Virus record (IMG/VR): IMGVR_UViG_3300047678_000444
Location: 1-23,876 of that record
Length of the DNA stretch: 23,876 nucleotides
Reading direction: 5' to 3' (one strand)
Source: a virus
In this document: positions 720 to 23,876 of the stretch, one piece after another
Layout of the letters: each line of letters opens with the position of its first letter
Position numbering within the stretch: the first letter of the stretch is position 1
Notes under the pieces: model-generated
What the model saw: the letters and a program-made list of their open reading frames with translations, nothing else
The model's database searches: none
What the model was told of the DNA's origin: nothing
Made by a program: the position numbers and the translations under genes

Positions 720-2638
720 GACCAGCACCGATCTGGTCGACGGCATGCCCGGATTGGGACCGGCGCATCGTCGAAGGACGCTCGCTGATCCCGTTCGATC
801 CGCTCTATCCGGCCGAGGCGCAGGCCGCGCTCGACATCTTCCGCGCGCTGCGCATCGTCGACGCGCCCGGCTCGCCGACGATGGGCGAGGTCTGCCGCGC
901 CTGGGTGCTAGACTTCGTCGCCACCATCTTCGGCGCCTATGACGACGAGAGCGGACGCCGGCTGATCCAGTATTTCTTCCTGCTCATCAGCAAGAAGAAC
1001 TCCAAGTCGACGCTTGCGGCCGGCATCATGGTCACGGCGCTGATCCGCAACTGGCGGGAGTCCGGCGAGTTCTACATCCTGGCGCCCACCAAAGAGATCG
1101 CCGACAACAGCTACATTCCGGCCCGTGACATGGTGCAGGCCGATCCCGACCTGCGCACGATCCTCAAACCCAGCGCTGGGCGCGTCATCGAGCATCGCAA
1201 CACCGGCGCCATCCTCAAGGTGGTCGCGGCCGACAATGAGACCGTCTCAGGCAAGAAGACGATCGGCCTTCTGATCGACGAGCTCTGGTTGTTCGGCAAG
1301 CGCGCCGGCGCCCATAACATGCTGATGGAGGCCGTGGGCGGCCTGGCGTCACGGCCCGAAGGCTTCGAGATCAACCTGTCGACGCAATCGGATGCGCCGC
1401 CGCAGGGTGTGTTCAAGCAGCGGCTGGACGAGTACCGCGACATCCGCGACGGCAAGGTCATCGCGCCGAACAAGCTGGGCGTGCTCTATGAGTTTCCGAA
1501 GTCCTATTTGAAGGACGAGAAGTTCCGGGATCCCAAGACCTGGCACATCACCAACCCCAATCTCGGCGCCTCGGTCGATGAGCGCTATCTGCTCGATCAG
1601 TTCGCGACCGTGCAGCGCGCCGGCCGGGCCGAAGTCGTCGGCTTCCTCGCCAAGCATCTCAACGTCCAGATCGGCCAGTCGCTGCGCTCGGATGGCTGGG
1701 CGGGCGCTGCGATCTGGGCCCGTGGCATCGAGCAGGGACTGAGCCTCGACGACATCCTGGCCCGCGCGGATGTCGCCGTGGTCGGTCTCGACGGCGGCGG
1801 CCTCGACGATCTCCTCGGCGTCTACGTGCTCGGCCGCGAGAGAGGCACCAACCGCTGGCTCGGCTGGGGTCATGCGCTGATCTCGACCGTCGGCGCGCAT
1901 CGCCGCAAGGCCAACGCGGAAGACTATCTGCGCTTCAAGAAGGCTGGCGAGCTGACCGTATTTCGGTTCGGTCATCTCGACGAGGACCTGATCGACGACG
2001 ACCCGGTACTGGCGGAGCTGCTGACCGACGTGCCGGCGGCGGACCCGGATGCAAAGCTGCCGCCCGATATCCGTTACGTCGTCGACCTGGTCGAGCGCAT
2101 CAGCGGGCTCGGCCTGCTCGCCCAGGTCGGCGTCGACGCCGCCGGCATCGGCGCCATCGTCGACGCGCTCGCCGGCATCGGAGTGACGCAGGATGCCGAG
2201 ACGCTCGATGCGGTCCGACAGGGCATCGCGCTGATGGGAGCAATCAAGACCATCGAGCGCAAGCTCGCGGATCGCAGCTTCCGCCACGGTGCCCAGGAGC
2301 TGATGAGCTGGACGGTGGGTAATTTGCGGGTGGTGCCGACGCCAACGGCGATGCGGATCGGGCGCGACGAATCCGGCTTCGGCAAGGTCGACCCCGCGAT
2401 GGCGCTGTTCAACGCGGCGCATCTGATGAGCCTCAATCCGGAAGGCGAAGGCCTGTCCGTCTACGACCAGCTCGCGGCCGCCGAAACAGGCGCCGAACCA
2501 GCGCAATCAGGTGACGGGGAGGCGGATGACGATGCGATCGACATGGCGATCCTGCGCGATCCGTCGCATCCCCGCTGGCAGGAGATGCGCGAGAAATTCG
2601 AAGCGACATTGCCGGCTGATGACGAAGGCTTCTTCTGA
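716..2638 (+). CDS. Terminase large subunit (Terminase_1-like ATPase/nuclease)
   Basis: This 640-residue packaging motor pumps DNA into the prohead through the portal and cuts it to length. The N-terminal ATPase has a Walker-A-like loop KKNSKST (residues 93-99) and a Walker B strand IGLLIDE ending at D188-E189. The C-terminal RNase H-like nuclease shows the expected acidic residues: D359 in VVGLDGGG, D474 in VGVDAAG and D559 in GKVDPA. The arrangement matches the Terminase_1 family, which often has KNGKS in the loop; here the glycine is serine. The start is GTG 716, coupled to the small subunit by a 4-base overlap. The last ~50 residues are acidic and low in complexity. The stop overlaps the portal start (TGATG). 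Confidence 0.92.
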   Translation: MRPAPIWSTACPDWDRRIVEGRSLIPFDPLYPAEAQAALDIFRALRIVDAPGSPTMGEVCRAWVLDFVATIFGAYDDESGRRLIQYFFLLISKKNSKSTLAAGIMVTALIRNWRESGEFYILAPTKEIADNSYIPARDMVQADPDLRTILKPSAGRVIEHRNTGAILKVVAADNETVSGKKTIGLLIDELWLFGKRAGAHNMLMEAVGGLASRPEGFEINLSTQSDAPPQGVFKQRLDEYRDIRDGKVIAPNKLGVLYEFPKSYLKDEKFRDPKTWHITNPNLGASVDERYLLDQFATVQRAGRAEVVGFLAKHLNVQIGQSLRSDGWAGAAIWARGIEQGLSLDDILARADVAVVGLDGGGLDDLLGVYVLGRERGTNRWLGWGHALISTVGAHRRKANAEDYLRFKKAGELTVFRFGHLDEDLIDDDPVLAELLTDVPAADPDAKLPPDIRYVVDLVERISGLGLLAQVGVDAAGIGAIVDALAGIGVTQDAETLDAVRQGIALMGAIKTIERKLADRSFRHGAQELMSWTVGNLRVVPTPTAMRIGRDESGFGKVDPAMALFNAAHLMSLNPEGEGLSVYDQLAAAETGAEPAQSGDGEADDDAIDMAILRDPSHPRWQEMREKFEATLPADDEGFF

Positions 2639-4071
2639 TGTTTGAGCAGCTGCGCGACCGCATGGCGATCGGCCTGCTGGCGATCGCCAACCGCGTCACC
2701 TCGGACCAGCGCTTCCCCGGTGCGGGGCGGGTACCGAATGCGATCCGCACGCTCGCGGGCGTCGCGATCACGCCGGACACGGCGGTCACGATCGCGACGG
2801 TCTGGGCCTGCCTGCGCTATCTGTCGCAGACGGTCGCCGTGCTGCCATGGCACGTCAAGAAGGACGGCGAGAACGGGCCGGAGATCCAGCGCGCGCACGG
2901 CGTCGACTACCTGCTGTGGAAGCGGCCGAGCAAAGAGTGGTCGTCGTTCCAGTTCCGCGAAACCCTGATGCATTGGGCGCTGCGCTGGGGCAATGGCTAC
3001 GCCGAGATCGAGCCCGACCAGCTCGGTCGCCCGGCGGCGCTGTGGCCCATCCATCCGGAGCGCGTGCTGGTCTGTCGCGCGACTGACGACGAGACAGACG
3101 CTTATGGCGATCCGATCGACCCGGGCGATCTGTTCTATGAGGTCAGCAACGGCTCGAACCTGCAGGGCTCATCCGGCGCCGGCGCCAAGACAATCCTCGC
3201 CGCCAAGAACATGTTTCACCTCCGCGGCTTCGGTGAGGGGCCGGTCGGCGTCAACGTGATCGCCTATGCCGCGCAGTCGCTCGGCTGGACCCGCGCGGCG
3301 CAACTGTTCGGCGCGGCGTTCTTCGGCAACGGCATGAACCCGGCCGGCGTCGTCATCAACAAGAAGCCGCTGAAGGCGGATGGCCTGAAGCGGCAGAAGG
3401 CGGAGTTCGACCAGCTCTACAAGGGGCCGAACAACTCCCACCGCACCGTGTTCCTCGACAACGACGCGGACTGGAAATCGATCGGCTTCAATGCGCGCGA
3501 CGCCCAGCTGATCGAGGTGCATCAATATCTGGTCGAGGAGACCTGCCGTTGGTTCGGGGTGCCGCCGCACAAGGTGATGCACCTGTTGCGCGCCACGTTC
3601 ACGAACATCGAGAGCCAGGGCATCGAGGTCGTTGTCGACAGCATTTCGCCGTGGGTCAAGCGTCTGGAGGACGAGGCCGATTTCAAGCTGTTCGGCCAGA
3701 ACCGCCAGAAGATCTACACCAAGATCGACATGCGGGGCTTGATGCGCGGTGATGCCGCGGCGCGCGCCGCCTACTACAAGATGATGCGCGAGGCTGGCGC
3801 TTACAACGCCAACCGCATCCTCGAGCTCGAGGACGAGAACACGATCGGAAAGATCGGCGACGCCTACACCATGAACGGCACCTATCGCACGCTCGAGCAG
3901 ATCATCGAGGGCGAGCCCGCGGCCACGGGTGCGGCACCGGCGGCGGATCCGGAGACCGAGAGCGATCCTGCGCCCACGCCCGAGCTCGGCGAGGATGCCG
4001 CCGCCCAGGCCGCGCTCGAACAGCGGCTCCATGCGATCGAACAATCATTGCGTGAGCGAGCCCATGTCTAA
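2638..4071 (+). CDS. Portal protein (HK97 family)
   Basis: This 477-residue protein would form the twelve-subunit ring at one capsid vertex through which DNA enters and leaves. It carries typical HK97-portal landmarks: the early helix VWACLRYLSQTVAVLPWHV (from about residue 57), the wing segment with LMHWALRWGNGYAEI, the block AAFFGNGMNPAGVV, and the stem/clip region RWFGVPPHKVMHL followed by TNIESQGIEVVVDSI. The C-terminal 60 residues are Ala/Pro/Glu rich and probably disordered. The length is normal for the family. The start ATG 2638 shares one base with the terminase stop, and the last 8 bases overlap the collagen-like gene. Confidence 0.93.
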   Translation: MFEQLRDRMAIGLLAIANRVTSDQRFPGAGRVPNAIRTLAGVAITPDTAVTIATVWACLRYLSQTVAVLPWHVKKDGENGPEIQRAHGVDYLLWKRPSKEWSSFQFRETLMHWALRWGNGYAEIEPDQLGRPAALWPIHPERVLVCRATDDETDAYGDPIDPGDLFYEVSNGSNLQGSSGAGAKTILAAKNMFHLRGFGEGPVGVNVIAYAAQSLGWTRAAQLFGAAFFGNGMNPAGVVINKKPLKADGLKRQKAEFDQLYKGPNNSHRTVFLDNDADWKSIGFNARDAQLIEVHQYLVEETCRWFGVPPHKVMHLLRATFTNIESQGIEVVVDSISPWVKRLEDEADFKLFGQNRQKIYTKIDMRGLMRGDAAARAAYYKMMREAGAYNANRILELEDENTIGKIGDAYTMNGTYRTLEQIIEGEPAATGAAPAADPETESDPAPTPELGEDAAAQAALEQRLHAIEQSLRERAHV

Positions 4072-4954
4072 AGCTCCGACCGTCCTGGCGCGCGCCACCA
4101 CGCCGCCGCCGGAACAGCCCCCGGAAAAGCCGCGCTCGCTGCTCGACCGCATCGTCGGCTCGATCGAGAGCCTGGTCGCGCGCGTGCAGGAGATCGAGCG
4201 TCGGCCGCTGGCCAGGGATGGCGAGCGCGGCCCGCAAGGGGCGCAGGGCGTGCAAGGCGCCGCCGGCGATCGTGGACCGGCCGGCGAGCCGGGTCCGCGG
4301 GGCGAGCGCGGCGAGCCTGGTCTCGTTGGCCGCGATGGTCCGTCCGGTCCGCAGGGCGAGCCCGGGCTGCGCGGCGAGCGCGGCGAGACCGGGCTGCAGG
4401 GCGAGCGCGGTGAGCCGGGGCTCAACGGCCAGGACGGCGCACCCGGTCCGCAAGGGCTGCCAGGGCCGCAGGGCGCGATCGGTGAGCGCGGCCCGGCCGG
4501 CGAACCCGGTCCGCGCGGCGAGCGCGGCGAAGCGGGCCTCGCAGGCCGTGACGGCCGTGACGGACTTCCCGGCCTGCCCGGCGAGCGCGGTCCGCAGGGT
4601 GAGCAGGGACTGCCGGGCCCGCAGGGCGAACGCGGCGAGCAGGGACTGCAGGGCGAGTCAGGCGAGCAGGGCGTCGGCGGCCCGATCGGTCCGCCTGGCG
4701 ATCGCGGCGAACCAGGTGCGCGCGGCGAACGCGGCGAGCCCGGCCCACGTGGTGAGCGCGGCGAGCCCGGCCCACGCGGCGAACGTGGTGCGCCCGGACC
4801 GGTCGGCGCAGCCGGGCCGAAAGGCGAGGCCGGCGCCACCATCGAAATCGGCGACATGTCCCCCGCGCGCATGAGCGCCCGGGATCTCGACCGCCTGATG
4901 ATCCGCGAGATCACGATCAACGGCGAAACCTTCCAGATCCTGGCGCCGAAATGA
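4064..4954 (+). CDS. Collagen-like protein between portal and protease
   Basis: This 296-residue protein has a short N-terminal part (residues 1-52, with a likely helix SLLDRIVGSIESLVARVQEIE), then 69 consecutive Gly-X-Y triplets (residues 53-259) with no break in register, then a 37-residue C-terminal cap containing MSPARMSARDLDRL and ITINGETFQILAPK. Gly-X-Y repeats form collagen triple helices, so a trimeric rod with an N-terminal coiled-coil trimeriser is the likely structure. GER (11 times) and GEP (8 times) dominate, giving charge-pair stabilisation; there is one Lys in the repeat. Phage collagen-like proteins are usually tail fibres; the position here, between portal and head protease, favours a head-vertex or capsid fibre, which is inference. 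I chose ATG 4064; the in-frame GTG at 4052 is an alternative. The stop overlaps the protease start (ATGA). Confidence 0.85.
   Translation: MSKAPTVLARATTPPPEQPPEKPRSLLDRIVGSIESLVARVQEIERRPLARDGERGPQGAQGVQGAAGDRGPAGEPGPRGERGEPGLVGRDGPSGPQGEPGLRGERGETGLQGERGEPGLNGQDGAPGPQGLPGPQGAIGERGPAGEPGPRGERGEAGLAGRDGRDGLPGLPGERGPQGEQGLPGPQGERGEQGLQGESGEQGVGGPIGPPGDRGEPGARGERGEPGPRGERGEPGPRGERGAPGPVGAAGPKGEAGATIEIGDMSPARMSARDLDRLMIREITINGETFQILAPK
4220..4840 (+). repeat. Gly-X-Y coding repeat (69 triplets, 9-bp period)
   Basis: Every ninth base position begins a glycine codon across 621 bases. Within it, a 27-base unit encoding GEP-GPR-GER recurs nearly unchanged (starts near 4733 and 4760), showing recent unit duplication. 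Such DNA can expand or contract by slippage or recombination in exact nine-base steps without breaking the frame. Confidence 0.9.
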
Positions 4955-5679
4955 GGCCGACCATGCGCAGCATCCTCGACCAGCCGCTGATGAGCGTGAC
5001 GCCGTTGCAGTCCAAGCCGGGTGCGTCCGGCTATCGCATGGTCGCGCGCGGCGCCGACCGGGCCGAGATCTATCTCTATGGCACCGTCGGCGCCGATTGG
5101 TTCGGCGAGGGCGTGACCGCCAAGCAGTTCGCGGCCGACCTCAAGGGCCTCGGCAAGGTCAAGACCATCGACCTGCGCATCAACTCCGACGGCGGGTCGG
5201 TGTTCGAGGGCAAGACGATCTACTCGCTGCTGGCGGAGCACCCGGCCAAGGTCATCACCAGGATCGACGGACTGGCCGCGTCGATCGCCTCGCTGATCGC
5301 GATGGCCGGCGACGAGATCCACATCGCCGAGGGCGGCTTCGTGATGATCCACAATGCCTGGACCTTCACGGCCGGCAACGCCAAGGATCTGCGCAGCACC
5401 GCGGATCTGCTCGACACGGTCTCGGCCAGCATTCTCGACACCTATGTCGCCCGCACCCGCGGCGATCGCAAGACCATCGCGAACATGATGGACGACGAGA
5501 CGTGGATGAGCTCAAGCGAGGCGCTCAAGCACGGCTTTGCCGACAAGGTGACCGAAAACCTGAAGGTCGCGGCGACACTGAACCATGCCGACCGCTACCG
5601 GCATGTCCCGGCCGCGCTGCGGCCCAGCAACAGACGCGCTGCGGCCGCGCTGGAGCGGATCGCCGCCCTTAACTCCTGA
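4951..5679 (+). CDS. Head maturation protease, ClpP-like (S14 family)
   Basis: This 242-residue serine protease would cleave the capsid protein's N-terminal scaffolding domain during prohead maturation. The ClpP fold is visible: INSDGGSVFEGKTIYSLL (residues 77-94), the nucleophile motif GLAASIASLIAMAG with S111, and the base H134 in VMIHNAW. The third catalytic position falls in the acidic cluster D181-D182-E183 before TWMSSSEAL, as in many phage members. It starts at ATG 4951, overlapping the collagen-like gene by four bases; the in-frame ATG at 4963 is a possible alternative. It lies directly before the major capsid gene, the standard order for HK97-type heads. Confidence 0.93.
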   Translation: MRPTMRSILDQPLMSVTPLQSKPGASGYRMVARGADRAEIYLYGTVGADWFGEGVTAKQFAADLKGLGKVKTIDLRINSDGGSVFEGKTIYSLLAEHPAKVITRIDGLAASIASLIAMAGDEIHIAEGGFVMIHNAWTFTAGNAKDLRSTADLLDTVSASILDTYVARTRGDRKTIANMMDDETWMSSSEALKHGFADKVTENLKVAATLNHADRYRHVPAALRPSNRRAAAALERIAALNS

Positions 5680-5809: not shown

Positions 5810-7252
5810 ATGACGATCAAGAACGCCCTTCTGGGCGCAACCCGCATCACCGCTGCTGCGGCGCTCGCGGCGGCGATGCCGCTCAATGTCTTCGTCATGG
5901 CGGCGCCGACGATCGCCGAGCTCGAGGCCCGCGTCGTCGAGCTCAACGCCGAGTCGGAGGACTTTCGAGCTCGCATCGCAGCCGGCGACGAGCTTTCGGA
6001 CGACGACGCCGAGGCGATCGAGGCCAATGCGGCCGAGCTGGAGAAGCTCGCCAAGCGCATCAAGGCGATGAAGCTGCTGGAGCCGCAGGGCCAGGGCCGG
6101 CGCACCGCGGCCGAGCCGCAGAATCGCGAGCCCACGGGCGGCGGCGCCCGACGCGTGCCGGCCGAGCCGCGCCGCGACGACGCCCGCCACGGAATGCGCT
6201 CGTTCGGCACCTTCGCCCAGGCGGTGCTCAATCACTACCGCGGCAACACCACCGACGACGTGACCCGGTTGCGCAACGTTGCGACGACCTATGGCGGCGA
6301 GGGCATCGGCACCGATGGCGGCTTCCTGATCCCACCCTCGTTCTCGCAGGAGATCTGGCAGAAAGTGCAGGCCGAGGAGAATCTGCTGTCACGATGCACG
6401 CCGCTCACCACTGACGGCAACAGCATGATGATCCCGAAGGATGAGACCACACCGTGGCAGACTACGGGAGGCGTCCAGGTCTATTGGGAGGGCGAGGCTC
6501 AGGCGCCGGCAGCCTCCAAGCCGTCGCTGGAGATGGGCGCGCTGCGGCTCGCCAAGCTGATTGGACTGGTGCCGATCTCCGAGGAGCTGATGGCGGACGC
6601 CTCCGGCCTCGACTCCTGGCTGCGCGCCAAGGCGCCGAGCAAAATGGCGGCCAAGATCAACACCGCGATCGTCGCCGGAACCGGTGTCGGCCAGCCGCTC
6701 GGCATCATCCCGAGCTATGCCGCGGTCGGTGCTTCGGTGGTGCAGGTCTCCAAGGAGACTTCGCAGCCGGCCGATACGGTCTGGTTCGCCAACATCAACA
6801 AGATGTGGTCGCGGATGTATGCCGGCTGGCGCCGCAACGCGATCTGGCTGATCAATCAGGACATCGAGCCGCAGCTCGAGGGCATGGCGTTCGTGGGTAA
6901 TGGCATCACGCCCACCGCCGCCTCGAGCACGCCGGCCTATATGCCGCCCGGCGGCCTTGCGGATTCGCCCTATGCGCGCCTCAAGGGCCGCCCGGTCGTG
7001 CCGATCGAGGCCTGTGCCGCGCTCGGTGATCTCGGCGACATCATGCTCGTCGACCTCACGCAGTATTGGGCGCTGACCAAGGCCGGCGGAATCCAGACGG
7101 ACACCTCGATCCATCTCTATTTCGATCAGGCGCTCATGTGCTTCCGTTTCATCTTCCGCGTCAACGGTCAGCCGGCATGGTCCTCGACCGTCAGCCGGCA
7201 AAATGGCTCGGGCAACGATCTGTCCTGGGCCGTCGCGCTGCAGGCGCGCTGA
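5810..7252 (+). CDS. Major capsid protein (HK97 fold)
   Basis: This 480-residue protein would build the icosahedral shell. Residues 31-90 form an Ala/Glu/Lys coiled-coil-like delta (scaffolding) domain starting PTIAELEARVVELNAES, then a basic disordered linker to about residue 125, then the HK97 core: GGFLIPPSFSQEIW, the spine-helix region with KLIGLVPISEELMADA, and the C-terminal AQYWALTKAGG-like strand region ending in NGSGNDLSWAVALQAR. The delta domain is presumably removed by the protease encoded upstream. I chose ATG 5810 because AAGAAGG precedes it; the in-frame ATG 5897 would remove the first 29 residues, which are hydrophobic and resemble a signal peptide, a strange feature for a capsid protein. 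Confidence 0.93.
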   Translation: MTIKNALLGATRITAAAALAAAMPLNVFVMAAPTIAELEARVVELNAESEDFRARIAAGDELSDDDAEAIEANAAELEKLAKRIKAMKLLEPQGQGRRTAAEPQNREPTGGGARRVPAEPRRDDARHGMRSFGTFAQAVLNHYRGNTTDDVTRLRNVATTYGGEGIGTDGGFLIPPSFSQEIWQKVQAEENLLSRCTPLTTDGNSMMIPKDETTPWQTTGGVQVYWEGEAQAPAASKPSLEMGALRLAKLIGLVPISEELMADASGLDSWLRAKAPSKMAAKINTAIVAGTGVGQPLGIIPSYAAVGASVVQVSKETSQPADTVWFANINKMWSRMYAGWRRNAIWLINQDIEPQLEGMAFVGNGITPTAASSTPAYMPPGGLADSPYARLKGRPVVPIEACAALGDLGDIMLVDLTQYWALTKAGGIQTDTSIHLYFDQALMCFRFIFRVNGQPAWSSTVSRQNGSGNDLSWAVALQAR

Positions 7253-8303: not shown

Positions 8304-8843
8304 ATGATCGATCCCTCCGCAACCATCCATCGGCTCGCCCTCGTCGAGGGCGCCACGATTGGTCCGCGCACGCGGGTCTGGCAGTTCGCCAGCGTGATCC
8401 GCGGCGCGCGGCTGGGCGCGGATTGCAACGTGGCGAGCGGCGCGACGCTCGACGGTCCCGTGTTCGGCGACCGCTGCATCATCTCGCAGGGCGTCGCCAT
8501 GGGGCCCGGTTTTAAGATCGGCGATGACGTCTTCATCGGTCCGAACGTGACGGTCTGCAACGATCGCTGGCCGCGAACCTATAAGAGCGGTTTCGATCTC
8601 GCCAAGCTGCAGTCCGGATTTGTCACGGTCAGGATCTGCAACTGGGCCAGCATCGGCGCCAATGCCGTCATCCTGCCCGGCGTCGTCATCGGCAAGCGCG
8701 CGATGGTCGCCGCCGGCGCCGTCGTCGATCGCGACGTTCCCGGCGATCATTTGTTCAAGCGCGACGGCTCGGTGCAGCCGATCTCGCTGCGCGTCGAGCG
8801 CCATGCTGCGCGCTGCAGGATGCGGGAGGCGATCCGATGTTGA
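8304..8843 (+). CDS. Left-handed beta-helix (hexapeptide) acyltransferase
   Basis: This 179-residue protein is built of hexapeptide repeats ([LIV]-G-x4): ATIGPRTRVW, ARLGADCNVAS, PVFGDRCIIS, FKIGDDVFIG, ASIGANAVIL, VVIGKRAMVA, ending with GAVVDRDVPGDH, a signature of WbpD/WlbB-type sugar N-acetyltransferases and related enzymes. These work as trimers and move an acetyl or other acyl group from CoA to an amino sugar on a nucleotide. The length is close to the family norm, and the fold appears complete with the inserted loop NDRWPRTYKSG. It is the first gene of an accessory set embedded among head genes and precedes a glycosyltransferase with a 7-base overlap. The substrate is unknown. A weak ribosome binding site upstream leaves the exact start slightly uncertain. 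Confidence 0.88.
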   Translation: MIDPSATIHRLALVEGATIGPRTRVWQFASVIRGARLGADCNVASGATLDGPVFGDRCIISQGVAMGPGFKIGDDVFIGPNVTVCNDRWPRTYKSGFDLAKLQSGFVTVRICNWASIGANAVILPGVVIGKRAMVAAGAVVDRDVPGDHLFKRDGSVQPISLRVERHAARCRMREAIRC

Positions 8844-9451
8844 CGGTCGCAACCCTGCTCTGGGACGCGAACGACGCCTCGCTGCCGTTCTCGCGCTGCT
8901 ATGACGAGTCCTGGGTCACCAAGCTGCACGACGGTTTCGATCGGCATTTGCGCCAGCCGTTTCGCTTCGTGCTGTTCACGGATCGCGCGCGACGGCTGCC
9001 GGCGCACATCGAACAGGTTCGCCTGAAGGCCGACAGGCCCGACTATTCAAACTGCATCGAGCCCTACCGGTTCGGCGTCGCCATGATCCTGGTCGGGCTC
9101 GACACCATCGTCACCGGCAACATCGATCATCTCGCCGACTACTGCCTGACCGCCGACACCATCGCGCTGCCGCGCGATCCCTATGCGCCGCAGCGCGCCT
9201 GCAATGGCGTCGCGCTGGTCCCGGAAGGCCATCAGGGCGTCTGGCGCAATTGGCGCGGCGAGAACGACATGGAGTGGATGCGCCGGCAGGATCACGTCTT
9301 TATCGACGATCTCTTCCCGGGTCATGTCGTGTCCTACAAGGGCAGCGCCCGGGATCGCGGCCTCGGCGACGCACGCATCGTCTATTTCCACGGCCAGGAA
9401 AAGCCGCACCAGCTGCCGCATGTGCCGTGGATCGAGGAGAACTGGGTCTGA
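8837..9451 (+). CDS. Glycosyltransferase-like protein (GT-A type, phage cargo)
   Basis: This 204-residue protein resembles small nucleotide-sugar transferases. It begins with a beta strand VATLLWDAND, has FRFVLFTDR (residues 42-50), then the sugar-nucleotide/metal region MILVGLDTIVTGNIDHL (83-99), and ends with the block YFHGQEKPHQLPHVPWIEENW. In typical GT8-like enzymes the metal site is DxD, written as DLDT; here it is GLDT (G87, D89), so the first Asp is absent. It may still bind metal through other residues, or may be weak. A strong GGGAGG at 8824-8829 precedes ATG 8837, and the start overlaps the acyltransferase. Probable role: adding a sugar to a virion or host-surface acceptor; target unknown. 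Confidence 0.7.
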   Translation: MLTVATLLWDANDASLPFSRCYDESWVTKLHDGFDRHLRQPFRFVLFTDRARRLPAHIEQVRLKADRPDYSNCIEPYRFGVAMILVGLDTIVTGNIDHLADYCLTADTIALPRDPYAPQRACNGVALVPEGHQGVWRNWRGENDMEWMRRQDHVFIDDLFPGHVVSYKGSARDRGLGDARIVYFHGQEKPHQLPHVPWIEENWV

Positions 9452-9711
9452 TGTGTGGTCATCAAAATTTTTCAGCCAAGGTTGCAGTCGCGCGCCTAGA
9501 AGACACGCGGCAGTTTATGGCTGAGATCAAGATATGCTGCGCAGATTGCGAACAGCCCTTTCAGTTTCTCGGACTTGAGCCGGGAATTGATCTGCAGGGT
9601 GCGCGGGTCTCCATCGATGGTCTCGAGGCAAACATCGCTATCAGTCCTGTTGGCGCGAAGCCGAATCCGCTGCAGCGGATGGCGGTCAATATCACTCGTT
9701 TCGATAGCTGA
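9451..9711 (+). CDS. Small zinc-ribbon-like protein in the sugar cassette
   Basis: This 86-residue protein opens with MCGHQNF and has KICCADCEQPF at residues 27-37; C2, H4, C30 and C33 could hold one zinc ion. The rest is a small beta-rich domain (FLGLEPGIDL, ARVSIDGLEANIAISP). I recall similar short proteins next to transferase-like genes in other phages, but know no function. The ATG at 9451 shares a base with the preceding stop (TGATG). Its GC content is about 54 percent by hand count over 120 bases, against 63-72 percent in flanking segments, and it uses codons such as AAA, TTT and CTA that the neighbours avoid, suggesting a separate origin. Confidence 0.7.
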   Translation: MCGHQNFSAKVAVARLEDTRQFMAEIKICCADCEQPFQFLGLEPGIDLQGARVSIDGLEANIAISPVGAKPNPLQRMAVNITRFDS

Positions 9712-9713
9712 TC

Positions 9714-10385
9714 ATGAATGCCCAGCCCGACAGCCGGGAATTCGAATACTGGACGCCGGAGCCGATCTTCTCCGGCGAGACGGTGTTCTGCCTGGCCTCG
9801 GGCCCGTCGCTGACGGCTGAGATCGCCGAACGCATCCGCGGCCGTCGCACGATCGTGGTCAACAGCTCGTGCCGGCTCGCGCCGTGGGCCGACGTGCTCT
9901 ACTTCACCGACTCGAGCTGGTACGAGGCGCGGCGCGAGCTGGTCGCCGCCTGGCCCGGCTTGGTGGTGTCGATGTCGCGGATCGCCAAGCGCGAGCTGCC
10001 CGACAAGGTCAGGCGGATCGAGGGCATCGGCGATCCCAGCGCCATGATCCCGGGCCAATTCCCGCGGCCAGGGGCGCCCGTGGTGCGTCAGGGCCGCACC
10101 AGCGGCCACACGGCGGTCAGCCTGGCGCTCGCGCTCGGCGCCGCCAGGATCGTGCTGGTGGGCTATGACATGCGCGTCGTCGACGGCCGCGAGCATCATC
10201 ATCAGGAGTATTCCGGGCCGCGCGACCTCGACCAGTATGCCCGCGACTTCGTCCCTGCATTCAAAGGCTGGCATGCCGACGCGCGCGAGCTCGGCGTCGA
10301 GATCCTCAACGCGACGCCGGGCTCGGCGCTCACAGAGTTTCCATTCATTCCGCTCGACGAGGCCCTGGCGTGCGCAGCGTCCTGA
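9714..10385 (+). CDS. DUF115 / GT42-like putative sugar-processing protein
   Basis: This 223-residue protein has the layout of the DUF115/MAF_flag10 and sialyltransferase-like Rossmann group: an N-terminal glycine loop VFCLASGPSL (residues 24-33), RTIVVNSSCRLAPWADVLYFTD (45-66), and the second nucleotide-binding block RTSGHTAVSLALALGAARIVLVGYDM (128-153). Relatives include enzymes that use CMP-linked or related nonulosonic sugars, as in flagellin modification, as well as many uncharacterised phage proteins. It is the last gene of the cassette that also holds an acyltransferase and a transferase-like gene, so a role in glycan transfer or recognition is reasonable. A His-rich loop (REHHHQEY) follows the second block. 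Its end overlaps the connector gene by 16 bases. Confidence 0.7.
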   Translation: MNAQPDSREFEYWTPEPIFSGETVFCLASGPSLTAEIAERIRGRRTIVVNSSCRLAPWADVLYFTDSSWYEARRELVAAWPGLVVSMSRIAKRELPDKVRRIEGIGDPSAMIPGQFPRPGAPVVRQGRTSGHTAVSLALALGAARIVLVGYDMRVVDGREHHHQEYSGPRDLDQYARDFVPAFKGWHADARELGVEILNATPGSALTEFPFIPLDEALACAAS

Positions 10386-11014
10386 CCGTCACCGTCGCCA
10401 ATAGCGACACCATGCTGACCACCTTGAACAGGGTGAAGCTCGAGCTCGACATCACCGGCGCTGACACCCAGCGCGACATGCTGCTCAACCTCAAGATCCT
10501 GGAGGCCAGCGACGACATCGAGGCCGCGCTCTGCTTCACGGTGCGCCGCGAGACCGTGCAGGAGACGTTCTGGCACGAGGTGAGCGATTACGCGCCGGAA
10601 TATCTGGTGCTGGACCGCACGCCGGTCGCGACGATCACCAGCGTCATCGTCGACGACGTTCCGGCCGATGCCTCGCGCTACCGGCTCGATGCCGCCACCG
10701 GTCAGCTCTATGCGCTCGACCCGGCCGGGCATCCCGGCCGCTGGCTGTTCTGGAAGAGCATCGTCGTCGCCTATGCCGGCGGCTACATTCTTCCCAGCGA
10801 AACCGGCCACAACTTGCCGGCCGGCATCGAGGGCGCCTGCGTCGAGCTGATGTCGGACTACTGGGCCGCCAAGGGCCGCGACCCCAGCGTCCGCTCCGAG
10901 GAGGTCATCGGCGTCGGCACGGTCCAGTACTGGGTCGGCACCGTGGGCGATCCCGGCGAGCTGCCGCCGCGCGTGGTGATGAAGCTGGCGCCGTTTCGGC
11001 GCGCGGTGGTCTGA
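10370..11014 (+). CDS. Head-tail connector protein (gp6-like)
   Basis: This 214-residue protein would form the adaptor ring under the portal. The N-terminal helical part (residues 15-65: NRVKLELDI, QRDMLLNLKILEASDDIEAAL) is typical of HK97 gp6-like connectors, followed by the beta segment LDRTPVATITSVIVDDVP and the motif IVVAYAGGYILP, where phage connectors commonly show V.Y.AGY..P. A late helix (GACVELMSDYWAAK) completes the fold. The GTG start at 10370 is supported by GAGG at 10359-10362 with 7-base spacing; an ATG at 10412 would cut the first 14 residues. It marks the return to virion genes after the sugar cassette. Confidence 0.85.
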   Translation: MRSVLTVTVANSDTMLTTLNRVKLELDITGADTQRDMLLNLKILEASDDIEAALCFTVRRETVQETFWHEVSDYAPEYLVLDRTPVATITSVIVDDVPADASRYRLDAATGQLYALDPAGHPGRWLFWKSIVVAYAGGYILPSETGHNLPAGIEGACVELMSDYWAAKGRDPSVRSEEVIGVGTVQYWVGTVGDPGELPPRVVMKLAPFRRAVV

Positions 11015-18168: not shown

Positions 18169-18590
18169 CGCGCTCCGCGTTTCTTAGCACCCTGATCGGC
18201 GAGCCCTGGGCATGGGCCGATCACAATTGCTGGCAATTCGCCGTGGCCGTGCAGCGCGAGCTGTTCGGTCGCGCGCTGCCTGACATCGCGTTGCCCACAG
18301 ACTTCTCACGGCGATGGGTTCTCGACGAGTTCGCTTCGCATCCGGAGCGGGTGCGCTGGGAGGCAGTCGCCGAAGGCCCGGGCGGGCTGGTGATGGCCGG
18401 CGACGGCGCGCTGGTGCTGATGGCCCATGCGCGCTTCCCCGCCCATATCGGCGTCTGGCTGGCGCCGGAGCAGCGCATCATCCATTGCGACACCAACACT
18501 GGCGTCGCCTGCGAAAGCCCGCTGGCGCTGCGCCAGATGGGCTGGAAGCGATTGACGTTCTACGAGCCGAAACAGCTGGACGCCCAGTGA
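18165..18590 (+). CDS. NlpC/P60-like cysteine peptidase (lambda K position)
   Basis: This 141-residue protein has the NlpC/P60 layout: the cysteine nucleophile in ADHNCWQFAVAVQRELFG (C22), the central AGDGALVLMAH and the histidine motif ARFPAHIGVWL (H94 or nearby), followed by IIHCDTNTGV. It could trim peptidoglycan during entry or act in tail-tip assembly, as with lambda K. Lambda K also has an N-terminal JAMM metalloprotease domain; none is present here. GTG 18165 is chosen because it overlaps the previous stop. The stop shares a base with the next start. Confidence 0.8.
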   Translation: MTRSAFLSTLIGEPWAWADHNCWQFAVAVQRELFGRALPDIALPTDFSRRWVLDEFASHPERVRWEAVAEGPGGLVMAGDGALVLMAHARFPAHIGVWLAPEQRIIHCDTNTGVACESPLALRQMGWKRLTFYEPKQLDAQ

Positions 18591-21500
18591 TGACGCCTTC
18601 GCGCAAAATCCAACAGGCTCGGCCTCTCCCCGTCAAGGGAAGGGGACCGCAGCCGCGCGCGCGTCGGCAGCGAGGACAGCGCGACCGGCGGCCGGTCCTG
18701 CATCTCGTCATGCCCGGCCTCGAGGTGGCGCGCGAGCTGCCGCGGGCGCGCGAGACGGTGGAGAGCTTCCTGCGCCGCACCGGCTGGGCAGTGCGCGATT
18801 CCCGCTATGGCTGGCAATTCCGCAAGGGGCTGCCGACGATCTGCGAGATCAACGGCGAGGCGGTGCTGCGCCGCGACTGGCGCCGGCGGCGGATCCGCGC
18901 GACCGACGAGCTCCGCTTCGTCTCGCACCCGCTCGGCGGCAATGGCAATGGCGGCGCCAAGCAGATCGTCGGCCTGGTGGCGCTGATTGCGGTTGCGGCG
19001 TTCGCCACCTTCGTGACCGGCGGCGGCGCGGCCGCCTTGCTCGGTACCGCGTTCGGCGCCGGCACCCTCGGCGCCGCCGCGCTCGGGGCTGCGATCGGTA
19101 TCGGCGGCGCGCTGCTGATCAACGCGCTGACCGCGCCGAAAGCCGGCGCCACCAATTCGCCGAGCGCGACGCAGGACCAGATCTACAGCGTCGCAGCCCA
19201 GGGCAACACCGCCAAGCTCGGCCAGCCGTTGCCGGTCTGGTACGGCCGGCTGAAGCGCTTCCCGGACTTTGCCGCGACGCCCTGGGGCGAGTTCGTCGCC
19301 AACGACCAGTATGTCAACGTGCTGCTGTCGACGACGATGGGCAGCCTCGAGTACGAAGCGCTCTATGTCGATGACACCCTGCTCTGGCACGCCGGCGCCG
19401 GCATCGAGCCGGGCTTCGATGCCCAGCTCGCGTTCTACGAGCCGGGCCAGACCATCACGCTGTTTCCGGTCAATGTCGACCAGTCGAGCGAGGTCTCCGG
19501 CCAGCAATTGCCGTCAGGCTCCGGCACCTCCGGCGGCCGGTTCGGCCCGGGCGGCAGCGTGTTCGGCGGCTCAGGCCGCTCGCCCGGCGCCTGGCTCGGG
19601 CCGTTTGTCGCCAATCCGGCGGGCAGCCAGGCCCAGGCGATCGCGATCGACTTCGTGTTTCCGGCCGGTTGCTTCACCGTCAATAAGGATAACGGCAGCA
19701 TCGGCTATTCCACGGTCGGCCTGACCGCTGAATATGCACCGTGCGACGATGCCGGCAGCGCCACGGGGTCGTTTGCGCAACTGTTCTACCTCGAGCGCTC
19801 CTATGCCTCGCAGTCGCCGCTGCGCGACAGCGTCAAGGTCGACGTCTCGCCCGGTCGCTATCTGGTGCGCTTCCGGCGGGAGGATGCCGAGCTCGCGGGC
19901 ACCAATGGCTCCAACAGCGTGATCTGGGCCGGGCTGCGCGCGTTTCTCAAGGGAGCGAATTCATTCGCGGATGTCTCGACGGTGGCGATCCGGCTCAAGG
20001 CATCGCAGTCGACCCAGGGCGGTTACAAGTTCGGCGTGCTCGCCACCCGCAAGCTGCCGGTGTGGACCGGCGCGGCCTTCGTCACCCAGGCGACGCGCAA
20101 CGCCGGCTGGGCTTTCCTGGATGGCGTCGTCAACGCGCAATACGGCTCCGGCCTCGGCATCGACAAGGTCGACTTCAATGCCGTGGTGAATTTCGCGGCC
20201 GGCTGCACGGCGCGCGGCGACAGTTTTGATTATTGCTTCACGACCGCGGTCGCGGTGCCCGAGGCGCTCGACAAGATCCTGATCTCGTCGCGGTCCCGGC
20301 ACTTCTGGCTCGGCGATACCATCTCGGTGGTGCGCGACGAATGGCGCGACGTGCCGACCATGATGCTGACCGATCGCGAGATCGTGCGCGATTCCACGCA
20401 AATCAGCTTCCAGATGCTCGGCGACGAGGATCCCGATGCGGTCGTCGTCGAATATGTCGATCAGGACACCTGGCTGCCGGCGCAGGCGCAATATCCGCCT
20501 GACAGCGAGAGCTTCACCGCGGCCTATGCCGAGACCAGGCGCATCGACGGCGTCATCAACCGCGCCCAGGCGTTCCGCGAAGCAGCGTTCTATTACCTGG
20601 TCTCGATCTATCGCCGTGAGACCGGCCAGATCCAGACCGAGTATGAAGGCCGCGCCATCACCTTTGGCTCGGTGCTGCGGCTGCAGTCGGAGCTGCCGGA
20701 GGCCTATGGCTATGGCGGGGCGGTGGTCGCCGTCTCCGGCCACACCCTGACCCTGGAGCCGGCGCCGGTGTGGGACAGCGGCCCGTTCTATATCCGCCTG
20801 CGCCGGCCGAACGGCACTTTGTTCGGCCCGGTGCTGGTCACCCAGGGCGTCGATGCGGCGCATGCGGTGCTGGACAACACGAGCCTGGCGGCGGCCGAGA
20901 CCGCGCAGTCGACCACGCTGGCGGCCGTGCTGGCGCGCCAGGATGGCGGCGAGGATCCGTCGTTCGAGCTCGGCACCGGTGTGTCGTCGTCAAAACTCTG
21001 CGTCGTGCTCAATGGCGTACCCTCAGGCGAATTGTGCACGCTCAATCTCGTCATCGACGATTCCAGGGTGCATGCGACCGATCTCGGCGATCCGCCGGTG
21101 CTGCCGGTCGCGCAGTTTCCGGCCAACGACAGGCTGCCGCTGATCGTCGGCCTCAACGCGACGTTCGGGCAGGGCGCGATCGAGCCAAAGCTGTCGGCAT
21201 CATGGTTTCCAGCCGCCGGCGCGATCTACTATATCGCCGACGTCAGCTATGATTCCGGCGTGCACTGGCAGCAGGTCTACGAAGGCCAGGACAATCAGTT
21301 CTCGGCCGTGGTGTCGCTGGCCGCCCTGAGCCTGCGGGTGCAGGCCGTCAACACCGTCCTGAAGGGACCTTATTCGAGCGTCGACGTGACGGCGCCGACC
21401 CTCGAGGCAATTCCGCAATCGGTGGCGCTGAAGTCGCTGATCGAAGGCCTGCGATTTCAGGTCACGACTCTGCAGGACCAGATCCAGGCGGCGCTCGACG

Positions 21501-22117
21501 ACGTCACCCAGCGCATCGCGGCCGTCACTTCCAACCAGGATGCGCGCAACTGGCTCGACAAGAAGCAGGTGCGCACGCAGCTCGCTGCGCGCGCAGATGC
21601 CGCCGAGGCCGCCATCACCGAGGTCCAGACGGTCGCCGTCGACACCCAGGCGGCCCTGGCCTCATTCGAGACCACCGTCAGCGCCACCTTCGGCACTCTC
21701 AGCGCCGCGGTCACCACCAACAGCACGGCGATTGCGACGCTCGACGGCTACGCGGCGGCGTCGTGGTCGGTGACGCTCAACGTCAACGGCGCGATCTCCG
21801 GCATCCGCCTGGTCGACGGCAGCGACAGCGCCAGCGTCATCAACCTGCAAGCCGATCACGTGCAGATCTCGCTGCCCGGCTACAACGGCGGCAATCCCTA
21901 CGGCCTGTTCTCGACCGGCTTCGTCGGCGGGGTGCCGTCGGTCGGCATCAATGGCAACCTGATCCTGAATGGCACCATTTCAGCCGTCATGATGAACGTC
22001 GGAACCTTGAGCGCGATCACCGCAAATGTGGGCACGCTCACGGCGGGCAAGATCCAGAGTGCCGATGGCAGATATCTGATCGACCTCGACGGCGGTTTCG
22101 AGCTGATCAGTGACTGA
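18590..22117 (+). CDS. Tail tip protein: lambda I-like domain fused to J-like fibre
   Basis: This 1175-residue protein appears to be a natural fusion. Residues 35-117 form a ubiquitin-like beta-grasp domain (PTICEINGEAVLRRDW, RATDELRFVSHPLGG ending in G116-G117) like lambda protein I. Residues 122-182 are Gly/Ala-rich and hydrophobic (KQIVGLVALIAVAAFATFV, GIGGALLINAL), also as in lambda I. From about residue 198 (YSVAAQGNTAKLGQPLPVWYGR) it is J-like: tail-hub repeats, a fibronectin-type III-like domain near 864-940, a coiled coil near 945-1050, and the DUF1983-type end with NGTISAVMMNVGTL and GKIQSADGRYLIDL. It should form the central tip fibre that binds the receptor. ATG 18590 shares a base with the previous stop. 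Confidence 0.85.
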   Translation: MTPSRKIQQARPLPVKGRGPQPRARRQRGQRDRRPVLHLVMPGLEVARELPRARETVESFLRRTGWAVRDSRYGWQFRKGLPTICEINGEAVLRRDWRRRRIRATDELRFVSHPLGGNGNGGAKQIVGLVALIAVAAFATFVTGGGAAALLGTAFGAGTLGAAALGAAIGIGGALLINALTAPKAGATNSPSATQDQIYSVAAQGNTAKLGQPLPVWYGRLKRFPDFAATPWGEFVANDQYVNVLLSTTMGSLEYEALYVDDTLLWHAGAGIEPGFDAQLAFYEPGQTITLFPVNVDQSSEVSGQQLPSGSGTSGGRFGPGGSVFGGSGRSPGAWLGPFVANPAGSQAQAIAIDFVFPAGCFTVNKDNGSIGYSTVGLTAEYAPCDDAGSATGSFAQLFYLERSYASQSPLRDSVKVDVSPGRYLVRFRREDAELAGTNGSNSVIWAGLRAFLKGANSFADVSTVAIRLKASQSTQGGYKFGVLATRKLPVWTGAAFVTQATRNAGWAFLDGVVNAQYGSGLGIDKVDFNAVVNFAAGCTARGDSFDYCFTTAVAVPEALDKILISSRSRHFWLGDTISVVRDEWRDVPTMMLTDREIVRDSTQISFQMLGDEDPDAVVVEYVDQDTWLPAQAQYPPDSESFTAAYAETRRIDGVINRAQAFREAAFYYLVSIYRRETGQIQTEYEGRAITFGSVLRLQSELPEAYGYGGAVVAVSGHTLTLEPAPVWDSGPFYIRLRRPNGTLFGPVLVTQGVDAAHAVLDNTSLAAAETAQSTTLAAVLARQDGGEDPSFELGTGVSSSKLCVVLNGVPSGELCTLNLVIDDSRVHATDLGDPPVLPVAQFPANDRLPLIVGLNATFGQGAIEPKLSASWFPAAGAIYYIADVSYDSGVHWQQVYEGQDNQFSAVVSLAALSLRVQAVNTVLKGPYSSVDVTAPTLEAIPQSVALKSLIEGLRFQVTTLQDQIQAALDDVTQRIAAVTSNQDARNWLDKKQVRTQLAARADAAEAAITEVQTVAVDTQAALASFETTVSATFGTLSAAVTTNSTAIATLDGYAAASWSVTLNVNGAISGIRLVDGSDSASVINLQADHVQISLPGYNGGNPYGLFSTGFVGGVPSVGINGNLILNGTISAVMMNVGTLSAITANVGTLTAGKIQSADGRYLIDLDGGFELISD
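18625..18646. repeat. Possible decayed host repeat inside the tail-tip gene
   Basis: The segment CTCTCCCCGTCAAGGGAAGG (from 18624) encodes PLPVKGRG near residue 13. It resembles, from memory, the second common palindromic repeat of Bradyrhizobium-type genomes (CTCTCCCC arms). Only part of the inverted repeat remains. The similarity may be chance. Confidence 0.35.
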
Positions 22118-22523
22118 CAGGTTGTTCAGGGGCAATCTCGGCGGCGCCCAGGTGCTGCGGATCTCGCGGCCTGGCTTCAGCGCGCGCGGCGAGCCGTTCG
22201 GCTCCGCTGGAATTGCCCTGGATACGCGCATAGCCGACATCGGAACGGTGGTGGCTGCCGGGCTGATCATCTGCGGTGGTGGTCCGGTATCGTTCCCGGC
22301 CATGAGCTTCGTTCCGATCGTCAAGATCCTGGCCTACACCGGCGGCAACCTATCGGATCACGTCGTCATCAAAGCCGTCGCTCACAGCTGGTTGCCGGCG
22401 ATCGCGCTGGTGACGCAGAGCTCGATCGAGGTGATCGCCTACACCTGTCCGTGGGTCAATACCACTGCCTACTACAACCCGAACGGACAATATTACTCCT
22501 ACTACGTCTTTGCCGCAGGTTAG
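22110..22523 (+). CDS. Tail-tip/fibre accessory protein 1
   Basis: This 137-residue protein is not a family I can name. Its first 45 residues (LFRGNLGGAQVLRISRPGFSARG, then IALDTR) match the start of the two genes that follow, which begin with an xISKPGIDVRTA-type block. The rest is hydrophobic beta (IADIGTVVAAGLIICGGG, HVVIKAVAH, YYVFAAG) with Tyr/Asn-rich ends. A beta adhesin tip hung on a shared N-terminal attachment domain is a reasonable guess. GTG 22110 overlaps the J-like stop by eight bases, implying coupled translation; no clear ribosome binding site is seen. Confidence 0.6.
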   Translation: MTDRLFRGNLGGAQVLRISRPGFSARGEPFGSAGIALDTRIADIGTVVAAGLIICGGGPVSFPAMSFVPIVKILAYTGGNLSDHVVIKAVAHSWLPAIALVTQSSIEVIAYTCPWVNTTAYYNPNGQYYSYYVFAAG

Positions 22524-22526
22524 GCG

Positions 22527-22973
22527 ATGACCTTTCGCGCGCAGTTCGGCAGGCGCAGCGGCGTCTCGGGCGCATGGATCTCCAAGCCGGGCATCGACGT
22601 CCGGACCGCGCTGCCGGGCGACATGCTGCTCGACACGTCGGCGCAAGTGTTCCAGTGCATCGCCAAGGGCGACACGCTGATCTTGAACGAGGGTAAGGCC
22701 TCGATCCCCGCCGGCACTTATGGCACCGCGGTTGCACTTCCGGCGTCCCTGGCGCCGTTCTCGAACGTGGCGATGATGGCGAGCTACTACGAGGTCTCGA
22801 ATGCGGGGGTCGTGTTCGATGCCCAGACCATCTCCCAGACCTATCTGACCTTCCGCGTGTCGGCCGGCGTGCTCTTCCTCAATGTGACCTTCCGAAGCGC
22901 CGGCGGCACCGGAACGACATCGGTCAGCTTCCAGCACCGCGCCGCATGGTCGGTCTACCGTGGACAATTCTGA
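22527..22973 (+). CDS. Tail-tip/fibre accessory protein 2
   Basis: This 148-residue protein has the shared N-terminal block GVSGAWISKPGIDVRTA (residues 12-28), followed by PGDMLLDTSAQVFQCIAKGDTLIL and a beta-rich C-terminal half (VAMMASYYEVSNAGVVFDAQ; SAGVLFLNVTFRSAGG). No enzyme motif is present. It starts at ATG 22527, three bases after the previous stop, and its TGA overlaps the next start (TGATG). Together with its neighbours it is probably part of the receptor-binding tip. Confidence 0.65.
   Translation: MTFRAQFGRRSGVSGAWISKPGIDVRTALPGDMLLDTSAQVFQCIAKGDTLILNEGKASIPAGTYGTAVALPASLAPFSNVAMMASYYEVSNAGVVFDAQTISQTYLTFRVSAGVLFLNVTFRSAGGTGTTSVSFQHRAAWSVYRGQF
22584..22606. repeat. 23-bp direct repeat, copy 1
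   Basis: This 23-bp block, which encodes the KPGIDVRT part of accessory protein 2, is identical to 23036-23058 in the next gene. Confidence 0.9.
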
Positions 22974-23539
22974 TGGTGGGACGCGTGCTTCGGGGGCGAA
23001 ACCCGGCCACGGGAGGCGTCGGTCTGCTGGTCTCGAAGCCGGGCATCGACGTCCGGACAGCAAACCTGATGCAGCTGGCGTTCTCGTCGGACTACATCCA
23101 TCCGAAGCTCGTCATCAAAGGGACGGTGGTCAATCCCCCGACGAATGGATGGGGACCGTTCGGGGCCAGCGGAGCGGTGCCCGGAGCCGAGCAGACCCGA
23201 AACATCCTGTCCTATGGCCGCACCGTATCGCCCATCCCGTCGGCCTTCGCCATCGCGACCGCGCCGGATTGGCGGCTGCCGTTGGCGGTGGCGAGTGCGC
23301 AACTCGGGTATCTGGCGGGCCGCTGGCACAGCCATGTGTACGAGACCCCGGACAGCGGCGTGCTGATCGGTGAATACGGCCCGACGATTCAGAAGACCGC
23401 ATCCACGGGATCGAACGCCGTCAGCCTGAACTGGCACTCCGCGCGCTTCATCGTGGTGCCTTATCCCGACCGGCTGGAGATCTTCACCAACTGCCGGTCG
23501 TCCGTGACCATCAAATATCTCGTGCTGGAGAACCAGTGA
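22973..23539 (+). CDS. Tail-tip/fibre accessory protein 3
   Basis: This 188-residue protein begins VLRGRNPATGGVGLLVSKPGIDVRTANLMQLAFSSD, sharing the block SKPGIDVRTA with the previous gene. The remainder, with GTVVNPPTNGWGPFG, YLAGRWHSHVYE, LNWHSARFIVVPYPDRLEIF and YLVLENQ, is unrelated to the neighbours' C-termini and looks like a distinct beta domain. A common attachment end with different heads fits fibre or tip proteins. It starts at ATG 22973, coupled by TGATG; a longer in-frame start at 22946 lies inside the previous gene. The stop is coupled to the next start in the same way. Confidence 0.65.
   Translation: MVGRVLRGRNPATGGVGLLVSKPGIDVRTANLMQLAFSSDYIHPKLVIKGTVVNPPTNGWGPFGASGAVPGAEQTRNILSYGRTVSPIPSAFAIATAPDWRLPLAVASAQLGYLAGRWHSHVYETPDSGVLIGEYGPTIQKTASTGSNAVSLNWHSARFIVVPYPDRLEIFTNCRSSVTIKYLVLENQ
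23036..23058. repeat. 23-bp direct repeat, copy 2
   Basis: Identical in sequence to 22584-22606 and in the same reading phase, 452 bases downstream, in accessory gene 3. Confidence 0.9.
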
Positions 23540-23876
23540 TGTTCGTCATCTATGATGGCAGCGGCCGAATTCTCTCGACCATCTCGGGGCCGGACCAGAG
23601 CTATGGTGCCGACGTGCTCGACCGCGAGGGCCGGACGTGGCTGTTCCTTGAGGGTGTCACCTCGCTCGATCCGCTCACCTCGTACATTGATGTTGCAACG
23701 CGCGGCGTGCAGCCGCTGCGGACGATGACGCTGAGCCTCGACCGCGACGTTGTCGCCGCCGATGGACAGCACGCCGCGCGCGTCACAGGCCTGCCCGAAG
23801 GCGCCGTCATGCAGGTGCTGATTGGTGATGCCGAGGTGACGGCGGAGGTCATTTCCGGCGGCGTGGTCGCATTCAG
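23539..23876 (+). CDS. Tail-associated protein, cut by the window edge
   Basis: This gene is incomplete: 112 whole codons are present and the frame is open to the right edge. It begins MFVIYDGSGRILSTISGPDQSY, like short phage proteins located after fibre genes, then GREWLFLEG-like strands (RTWLFLEGVTSLDP) and a Ser/Thr/Asp-rich beta part (LRTMTLSLDRDVVAADGQ; LPEGAVMQVLIGDAEVT). It could be a fibre-assembly or tip-cap protein; no enzyme motif is seen. ATG 23539 shares a base with the previous stop. Confidence 0.6.
   Translation, partial: MFVIYDGSGRILSTISGPDQSYGADVLDREGRTWLFLEGVTSLDPLTSYIDVATRGVQPLRTMTLSLDRDVVAADGQHAARVTGLPEGAVMQVLIGDAEVTAEVISGGVVAF

Follow-up and report, generated by a model that had tools for sequence, protein, structure and literature searches.

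Fibres and decorations on phage heads are usually encoded beside the capsid gene and not beside the portal gene; the head fibre gene of the RcGTA particle, Rcc01080, lies outside the main cluster. The gp12 protein of phage SPP1 is described as a trimeric, collagen-like, non-essential capsid protein located at hexamer centres (PMC7602432, PMC6316719, PMC5292684). It has 64 residues, among them a short collagen-like motif, and its C-terminus is helical; its gene stands beside the capsid gene, between the portal and capsid genes. RcGTA head fibres use an N-terminal hydrophobic peptide as anchor and bind the capsule (PMC7296036). Other trimeric rods, the phi29 head fibre gp8.5 and T4 fibritin, are built of helical repeats or coiled coil, and fibritin carries a beta-hairpin foldon at its C-terminus. 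In Agrobacterium phage 7-7-1 the capsid vertices bear fibres made of protein and 88-114 nm long, and the protein of these fibres exemplifies how often the proteins of phage head fibres are left unassigned (PMC12796354). The region around gene 4 of this phage was considered as a rod locus and rejected, as it holds tail genes and no rod.

The DNA analysed here (the window, 23,876 nucleotides of IMG/VR record IMGVR_UViG_3300047678_000444) is the structural gene cluster of a siphophage. It contains a small terminase-like gene (72-719), the large terminase gene (716-2638) and an HK97-family portal gene (2638-4071, plus strand; PF04860, 4e-85), whose product matches the portals of HK97 (PDB ID 8cez, 1e-30) and RcGTA (6tba, 3e-9). 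Directly downstream of the portal gene lies a collagen-like gene (4064-4954, plus strand, ATG start, TGA stop, 296 amino acids), followed by the gene of a ClpP-type head maturation protease (4951-5679, plus strand; PF00574, 2e-29; phrog_94, 3.5e-79). The next gene encodes an HK97-fold major capsid protein with a long N-terminal delta-like domain (PF05065, 1e-43; plus strand, 5810-7252 from its likely start, within an open frame beginning at 5585). The original prediction had placed the collagen-like gene at a head locus and overlapping both neighbours. The neighbours are indeed portal and protease, in a head cluster that recurs in related phages, and the collagen-like gene shares 8 nt with that of the portal and 4 nt with that of the protease.

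Several small genes separate the capsid gene from three glycan-enzyme-like genes (8304-10385), after which come a head-tail adaptor gene (10370-11014) and tail genes including that of a lambda-J-like tail-tip protein (18314-22117). The trio between the capsid and adaptor genes resembles a hexapeptide acyltransferase, a glycosyltransferase (phrog_1962) and an MptE/sialyltransferase (phrog_4603). At least one glycan-enzyme-like gene is located downstream of the capsid gene also in the related loci L003, L081, L085, L087-L090, L100 and L108, as well as in L115, L118, L120 and L124; proteins of the virion or the surface of the host may be the targets that the products modify. Three small genes following the tail-tip gene (22110-23539) have a common motif, S-K/R-P-G-I/F-D/S-V/A-R, as if they were a duplicated small tail module. 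Two features overlapping the collagen-like gene were discarded: a tRNA-Ala called by ARAGORN (4736-4817, minus strand) lies inside Gly-X-Y codons, has no counterpart in Rfam and is almost certainly false, and a minus-strand frame rich in Pro/Ser repeats (4045-5352) is the mirror image of GC-rich collagen codons.

Three parts can be distinguished in the collagen-like protein. The shaft (residues 53-259; 4220-4840, plus strand) consists of 69 unbroken Gly-X-Y triplets, the number originally predicted, and matches the Pfam Collagen family (PF01391, 6e-38; 128.8 bits against a cut-off of 27.2). It is the sole run of at least six such triplets on both strands of the window, and when the residues of the protein were shuffled about 2,000 times, the longest run obtained was eight triplets. 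Because all four glycine codons are used over the stretch (GGC 44, GGT 14, GGG 7, GGA 5), the Gly-X-Y period is kept at the level of protein and does not reflect a DNA tandem repeat. The N-terminal part (residues 1-52; 4064-4219, plus strand), compared in an alignment of 31 N-termini, is composed of a short motif, a Pro-rich linker and an amphipathic helix LLDRIVGSIESLVARVQEIE. The motif reads V-L-A-R-A in the window and V/I-x-A/N-R-A in many relatives, and the helix ends in R-V/L-x-A-L-E-x-R-P across the 31 sequences. This part, for which a search of phage records gave no match, presumably provides the virion anchor and a coiled coil. A longer frame (GTG at 3929, 341 amino acids) was rejected, as the conserved N-terminus begins at 4064; a motif common to the N-termini of rod and protease, suggestive in three loci, failed across the relatives.

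The C-terminal cap (residues 260-296, 37 amino acids; 4841-4951, plus strand) comprises the helix SARDLDRL and a beta-hairpin REITINGETFQIL. AlphaFold2 models it as a beta-hairpin with a short helix (mean pLDDT 87.5), the strands being residues 27-34 and 37-44 of a 45-residue construct. Searches of the PDB with the cap gave no match by sequence or by fold, the fold search returning chance hairpins alone; a match to phage RcSimone-Hastad proved spurious, being antisense and in the replication region. Being constant where the shafts are variable, the cap resembles an element for registration or trimerisation more than a receptor binder. Of the two functions predicted for it, trimerisation suits the hairpin model, and nothing indicates receptor binding.

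A portal scan with three portal queries identified 44 related loci among viral contigs and another five among genomes. Those with portal and protease on one contig, after removal of repeats of the same phage and addition of one locus (L145), make up a set of 27 relatives. L145 derives from a portal survey of 397 Hyphomicrobiales genomes, only two of which carry a close portal: one was known already, and the other, L145, shows the order portal, collagen-like gene, protease. The gene-order comparison proposed together with the original prediction finds a collagen-like gene between portal and protease in 24 of the 27 relatives. Two others (L094 and L103) have there a non-collagen rod that keeps the same two ends but whose shaft is built of helical and beta repeats. 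In the last one (L109) the protease follows the portal directly and the rod gene is absent, which would fit an accessory part. In one locus (L114) the rod lies between portal and protease, about 2 kb after the portal. Five more contigs stop within the rod gene (L092, L102, L104, L106, L116). No collagen-like rod follows more distant portals, with identity of 36% or less.

Across the relatives both ends of the rod are conserved and its shaft varies in length and type. The cap had been predicted to be conserved, and it is so in 24 aligned sequences, with the approximate consensus I-E-I-G-D-x3-A-x-L-S-A-K-D-L-D-R-L-x-V-R-E-I-T-I-N-G-E-T-x-x-V-L. The counted shafts comprise 39 to 106 triplets, and a small beta module (type GRSIVSxxIDxxGRLVLxxTDGSxExVGxVVG) often interrupts them. 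L103 pairs in the portal tree with the collagen-bearing L100 (support 100/97) and L094 groups, with weaker support, with L089 and L003. As the two stand apart, the collagen shaft has probably been exchanged for another rod type at least twice. In a further locus (L138), an open frame with a GIY-YIG-like start motif and no Pfam match (378-1088) appears to split the collagen-like rod gene.

In bacterial collagens, pairs of Arg/Lys at position Y and Glu/Asp at the next X replace hydroxyproline as stabilisers of the triple helix. Such pairs exceed the expectation from triplet shuffling in all ten family members tested. The window protein has 15 of them against 7.9 in shuffled shafts, and none of 2,000 shuffles reached this count; in the weakest member 15 of 2,000 shuffles did. 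Conserved ends around a variable shaft, together with the excess of charge pairs, strongly suggest a trimeric rod. At 0.286 nm per residue a fully triple-helical shaft would measure about 59 nm in the window protein and 34-91 nm over the family.

Rods encoded directly 3' of the portal are present in other HK97-type phages, too. The shaft of the L103 rod matches post-portal proteins of EBPR siphovirus 3 (gp5), Pseudomonas phage PAJU2 (ORF007) and many E. coli lambdoid phages, and L103 and L094 match phrog_1289 (7e-36 and 9e-13, respectively). The window rod gave no match to PHROGs 1289 and 2271 among the best 25 of 40; its position 3' of the portal and its layout, an N-terminal coil and a long repeat shaft, are those of post-portal rods. 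The EBPR siphovirus 3, PAJU2 and E. coli rods end in a weakly matching CBM5/12-like domain (E=0.0018 for the E. coli rod, below the Pfam cut-off), whose AlphaFold model was discarded (pLDDT 34). The post-portal rod of Rhizobium phage RHph_X2_26 combines a coil, a beta module, short Gly-X-Y stretches and a CBM5/12-like end domain. In a separate lineage (L005, L055, L056), a collagen rod comes after the portal and contains two CBM-like modules, which have weak profile matches to chitin-binding domains of tail fibres and chitinases in the PDB. CBM5/12-like modules would fit outside, glycan-contacting parts; the window rod has no recognisable binding domain. In E. coli, PAJU2, RHph_X2_26 and the L005/L055/L056 lineage the capsid gene precedes the portal, and the rod is still downstream of the portal. 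Because the rod is kept there with the capsid gene on either side, its place goes with the portal rather than with the capsid or protease gene.

Judged from sequence and gene order, the collagen-like protein is probably, though by no means certainly, structural: an accessory virion fibre, trimeric and held by its N-terminus on the head or neck. Alignment of three chains would begin at both ends, in the beta-hairpin cap and in the N-terminal coiled coil, and from the 69 triplets a collagen triple helix of about 60 nm would form, with Arg-Gly-Glu salt bridges taking the place of hydroxyproline. The trimer would be attached through its N-terminal motif and helix; the most likely site on the head is the portal/neck vertex or its vicinity, and the capsid lattice is a possible one. 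Carried outside the particle as a flexible whisker, the rod would make it more likely that glycans or appendages of the host surface are touched weakly and reversibly. The head fibre of the original prediction, a trimeric rod, is partly supported: it accords with the head-cluster gene, the rod architecture and the precedent of gp12, while portal fusions found in E. coli prophages point inward.

These fusions concern a locus that exists in two forms. In one, the portal and rod genes overlap by ATGA, with five G upstream; in the other, six G at the same site are accompanied by a single open frame of about 860 codons, exemplified by WP_000267294.1 (861 amino acids), annotated as one portal protein. 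Complete E. coli genomes contain the portal-rod junction region in 1,235 of 5,426 cases, and of three annotated junction regions inspected, one had an intact fused frame and two were frameshifted. PGAP labels the two-frame form as a frameshifted pseudogene. Loci of this kind are L134 (1726-4224), L141 (833-3418) and L132 (2532-5116). Slippage on the G run could yield both fused and separate products. The fused frames retain the G-rich run and an ATG for the rod, and since this run resembles a ribosome site for that ATG, a free rod may still be made. PHROGs 1289 and 2271 carry the name "portal protein" for the rod; their members appear to be post-portal rods or fusions of portal and rod, so that phages are annotated wrongly.

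Fusion suggests that the rod associates with the portal, whose crown is turned towards the inside of the capsid (PMC10359639). For these two reasons we keep as the main rival a rod bound inside the head at the portal crown, acting in packaging or DNA ejection like the P22-type barrel or a minor head protein of the SPP1 gp7 type. Such a location would also agree with a rod gene that tracks the portal whether the capsid gene comes after or before it, and with the occurrence of portal and rod in one 861-residue frame in many E. coli prophages. We nevertheless consider it unlikely. The head has an inner diameter that we take to be roughly 55-60 nm, so that rods of 34-91 nm would hardly fit inside, those of 60-90 nm equalling or exceeding it. 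Swappable shafts and CBM-like modules are, moreover, typical of surface fibres, a separate rod may exist where fused frames keep the G run and ATG, and one relative manages without any rod gene.

Within the reading as an external fibre, one version would place the rod on the capsid lattice, as a decoration of hexamer centres. It is modelled on SPP1 gp12, trimeric, collagen-like and encoded between portal and capsid genes, and it takes a minor share of the probability we give to that reading as a whole. But gp12 is a protein with a small motif and a gene beside that of the capsid, whereas the protein here has 69 triplets and the rod gene follows the portal even with the capsid gene elsewhere. 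That the protein is a tail fibre or tail-tip component encoded by chance in a head cluster appears improbable. The original prediction held that phage collagen-like regions are normally parts of tail fibres; this is true for most PHROG matches listed, and small rod modules do recur in tail-fibre PHROGs, but it overlooked SPP1 gp12. The best PHROG matches listed for the window protein fall mainly on the Gly-X-Y repeat, its gene belongs to the head cluster, and its N-terminal part lacks the match in phage records that would link it to tail fibres. A tail-tip J protein and the genes that follow it are encoded elsewhere in the window (18314-23874), and the rod remains beside the portal in several lineages. 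An assembly aid not retained in the particle, conceivable for a protein co-encoded with the protease and with a capsid protein bearing a delta-like domain, is very improbable, as no scaffold role is known for long shafts of collagen and both the swap of rod types and the loss in L109 argue against an essential function in assembly.

A broader and more speculative proposal, which we regard as possible but no better than tentative, extends the external fibre to many HK97-type phages. These would carry modular trimeric post-portal rods with interchangeable shafts, be they of collagen, helical repeats or beta repeats, and glycan-binding modules, anchored at the portal vertex, in some cases fused to the portal, and forming collar whiskers or vertex fibres. 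If true, databases would hold an unnamed class of post-portal rods listed as "portal protein". The collagen-like protein is a conserved, exchangeable module of the phage head cluster and not a stray tail-fibre gene, and this module is linked to rods labelled "portal protein" in over a thousand E. coli genomes. A simple search rule, of inspecting the gene that follows the portal, would open the question of head fibres to tests in cultured phages.

Compared with known systems, phi29 gp8.5 and T4 fibritin, the latter with its hairpin foldon as a counterpart of the cap, may work like the window rod but differ in not being collagen; PDB-wide searches with the cap and with the helical-shaft rods matched neither of them. 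The rods of E. coli lambdoid phages, PAJU2/IME307 and EBPR siphovirus 3 have the same gene position, N-terminal coil and long repeat shaft, and they share the shaft with the syntenic homologues L103 and L094. They differ in that this shaft is helical, the end CBM5/12-like, collagen and hairpin cap are missing, and portal and rod sometimes form one open frame, unlike in the window. Rcc01080 is by its description alike in being flexible, with a short N-terminal hydrophobic anchor, on an alphaproteobacterial HK97-type particle; it differs in its 325 residues and in standing, at the capsid vertices, on a pentameric base formed by the protein Rcc01079. SPP1 gp12 is the nearest described case, and the window rod would work like gp12 or the RcGTA head fibres. 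It differs in its 296 residues, its N-terminal motif and helix, its 69-triplet shaft, its hairpin cap and its gene after the portal, a conserved place of which we found no description in the literature searched. A collagen-like capsid protein is thus already known from SPP1, to which the long post-portal rod adds a variant, best filed among phage head-associated fibres as one with a conserved gene place after the portal.
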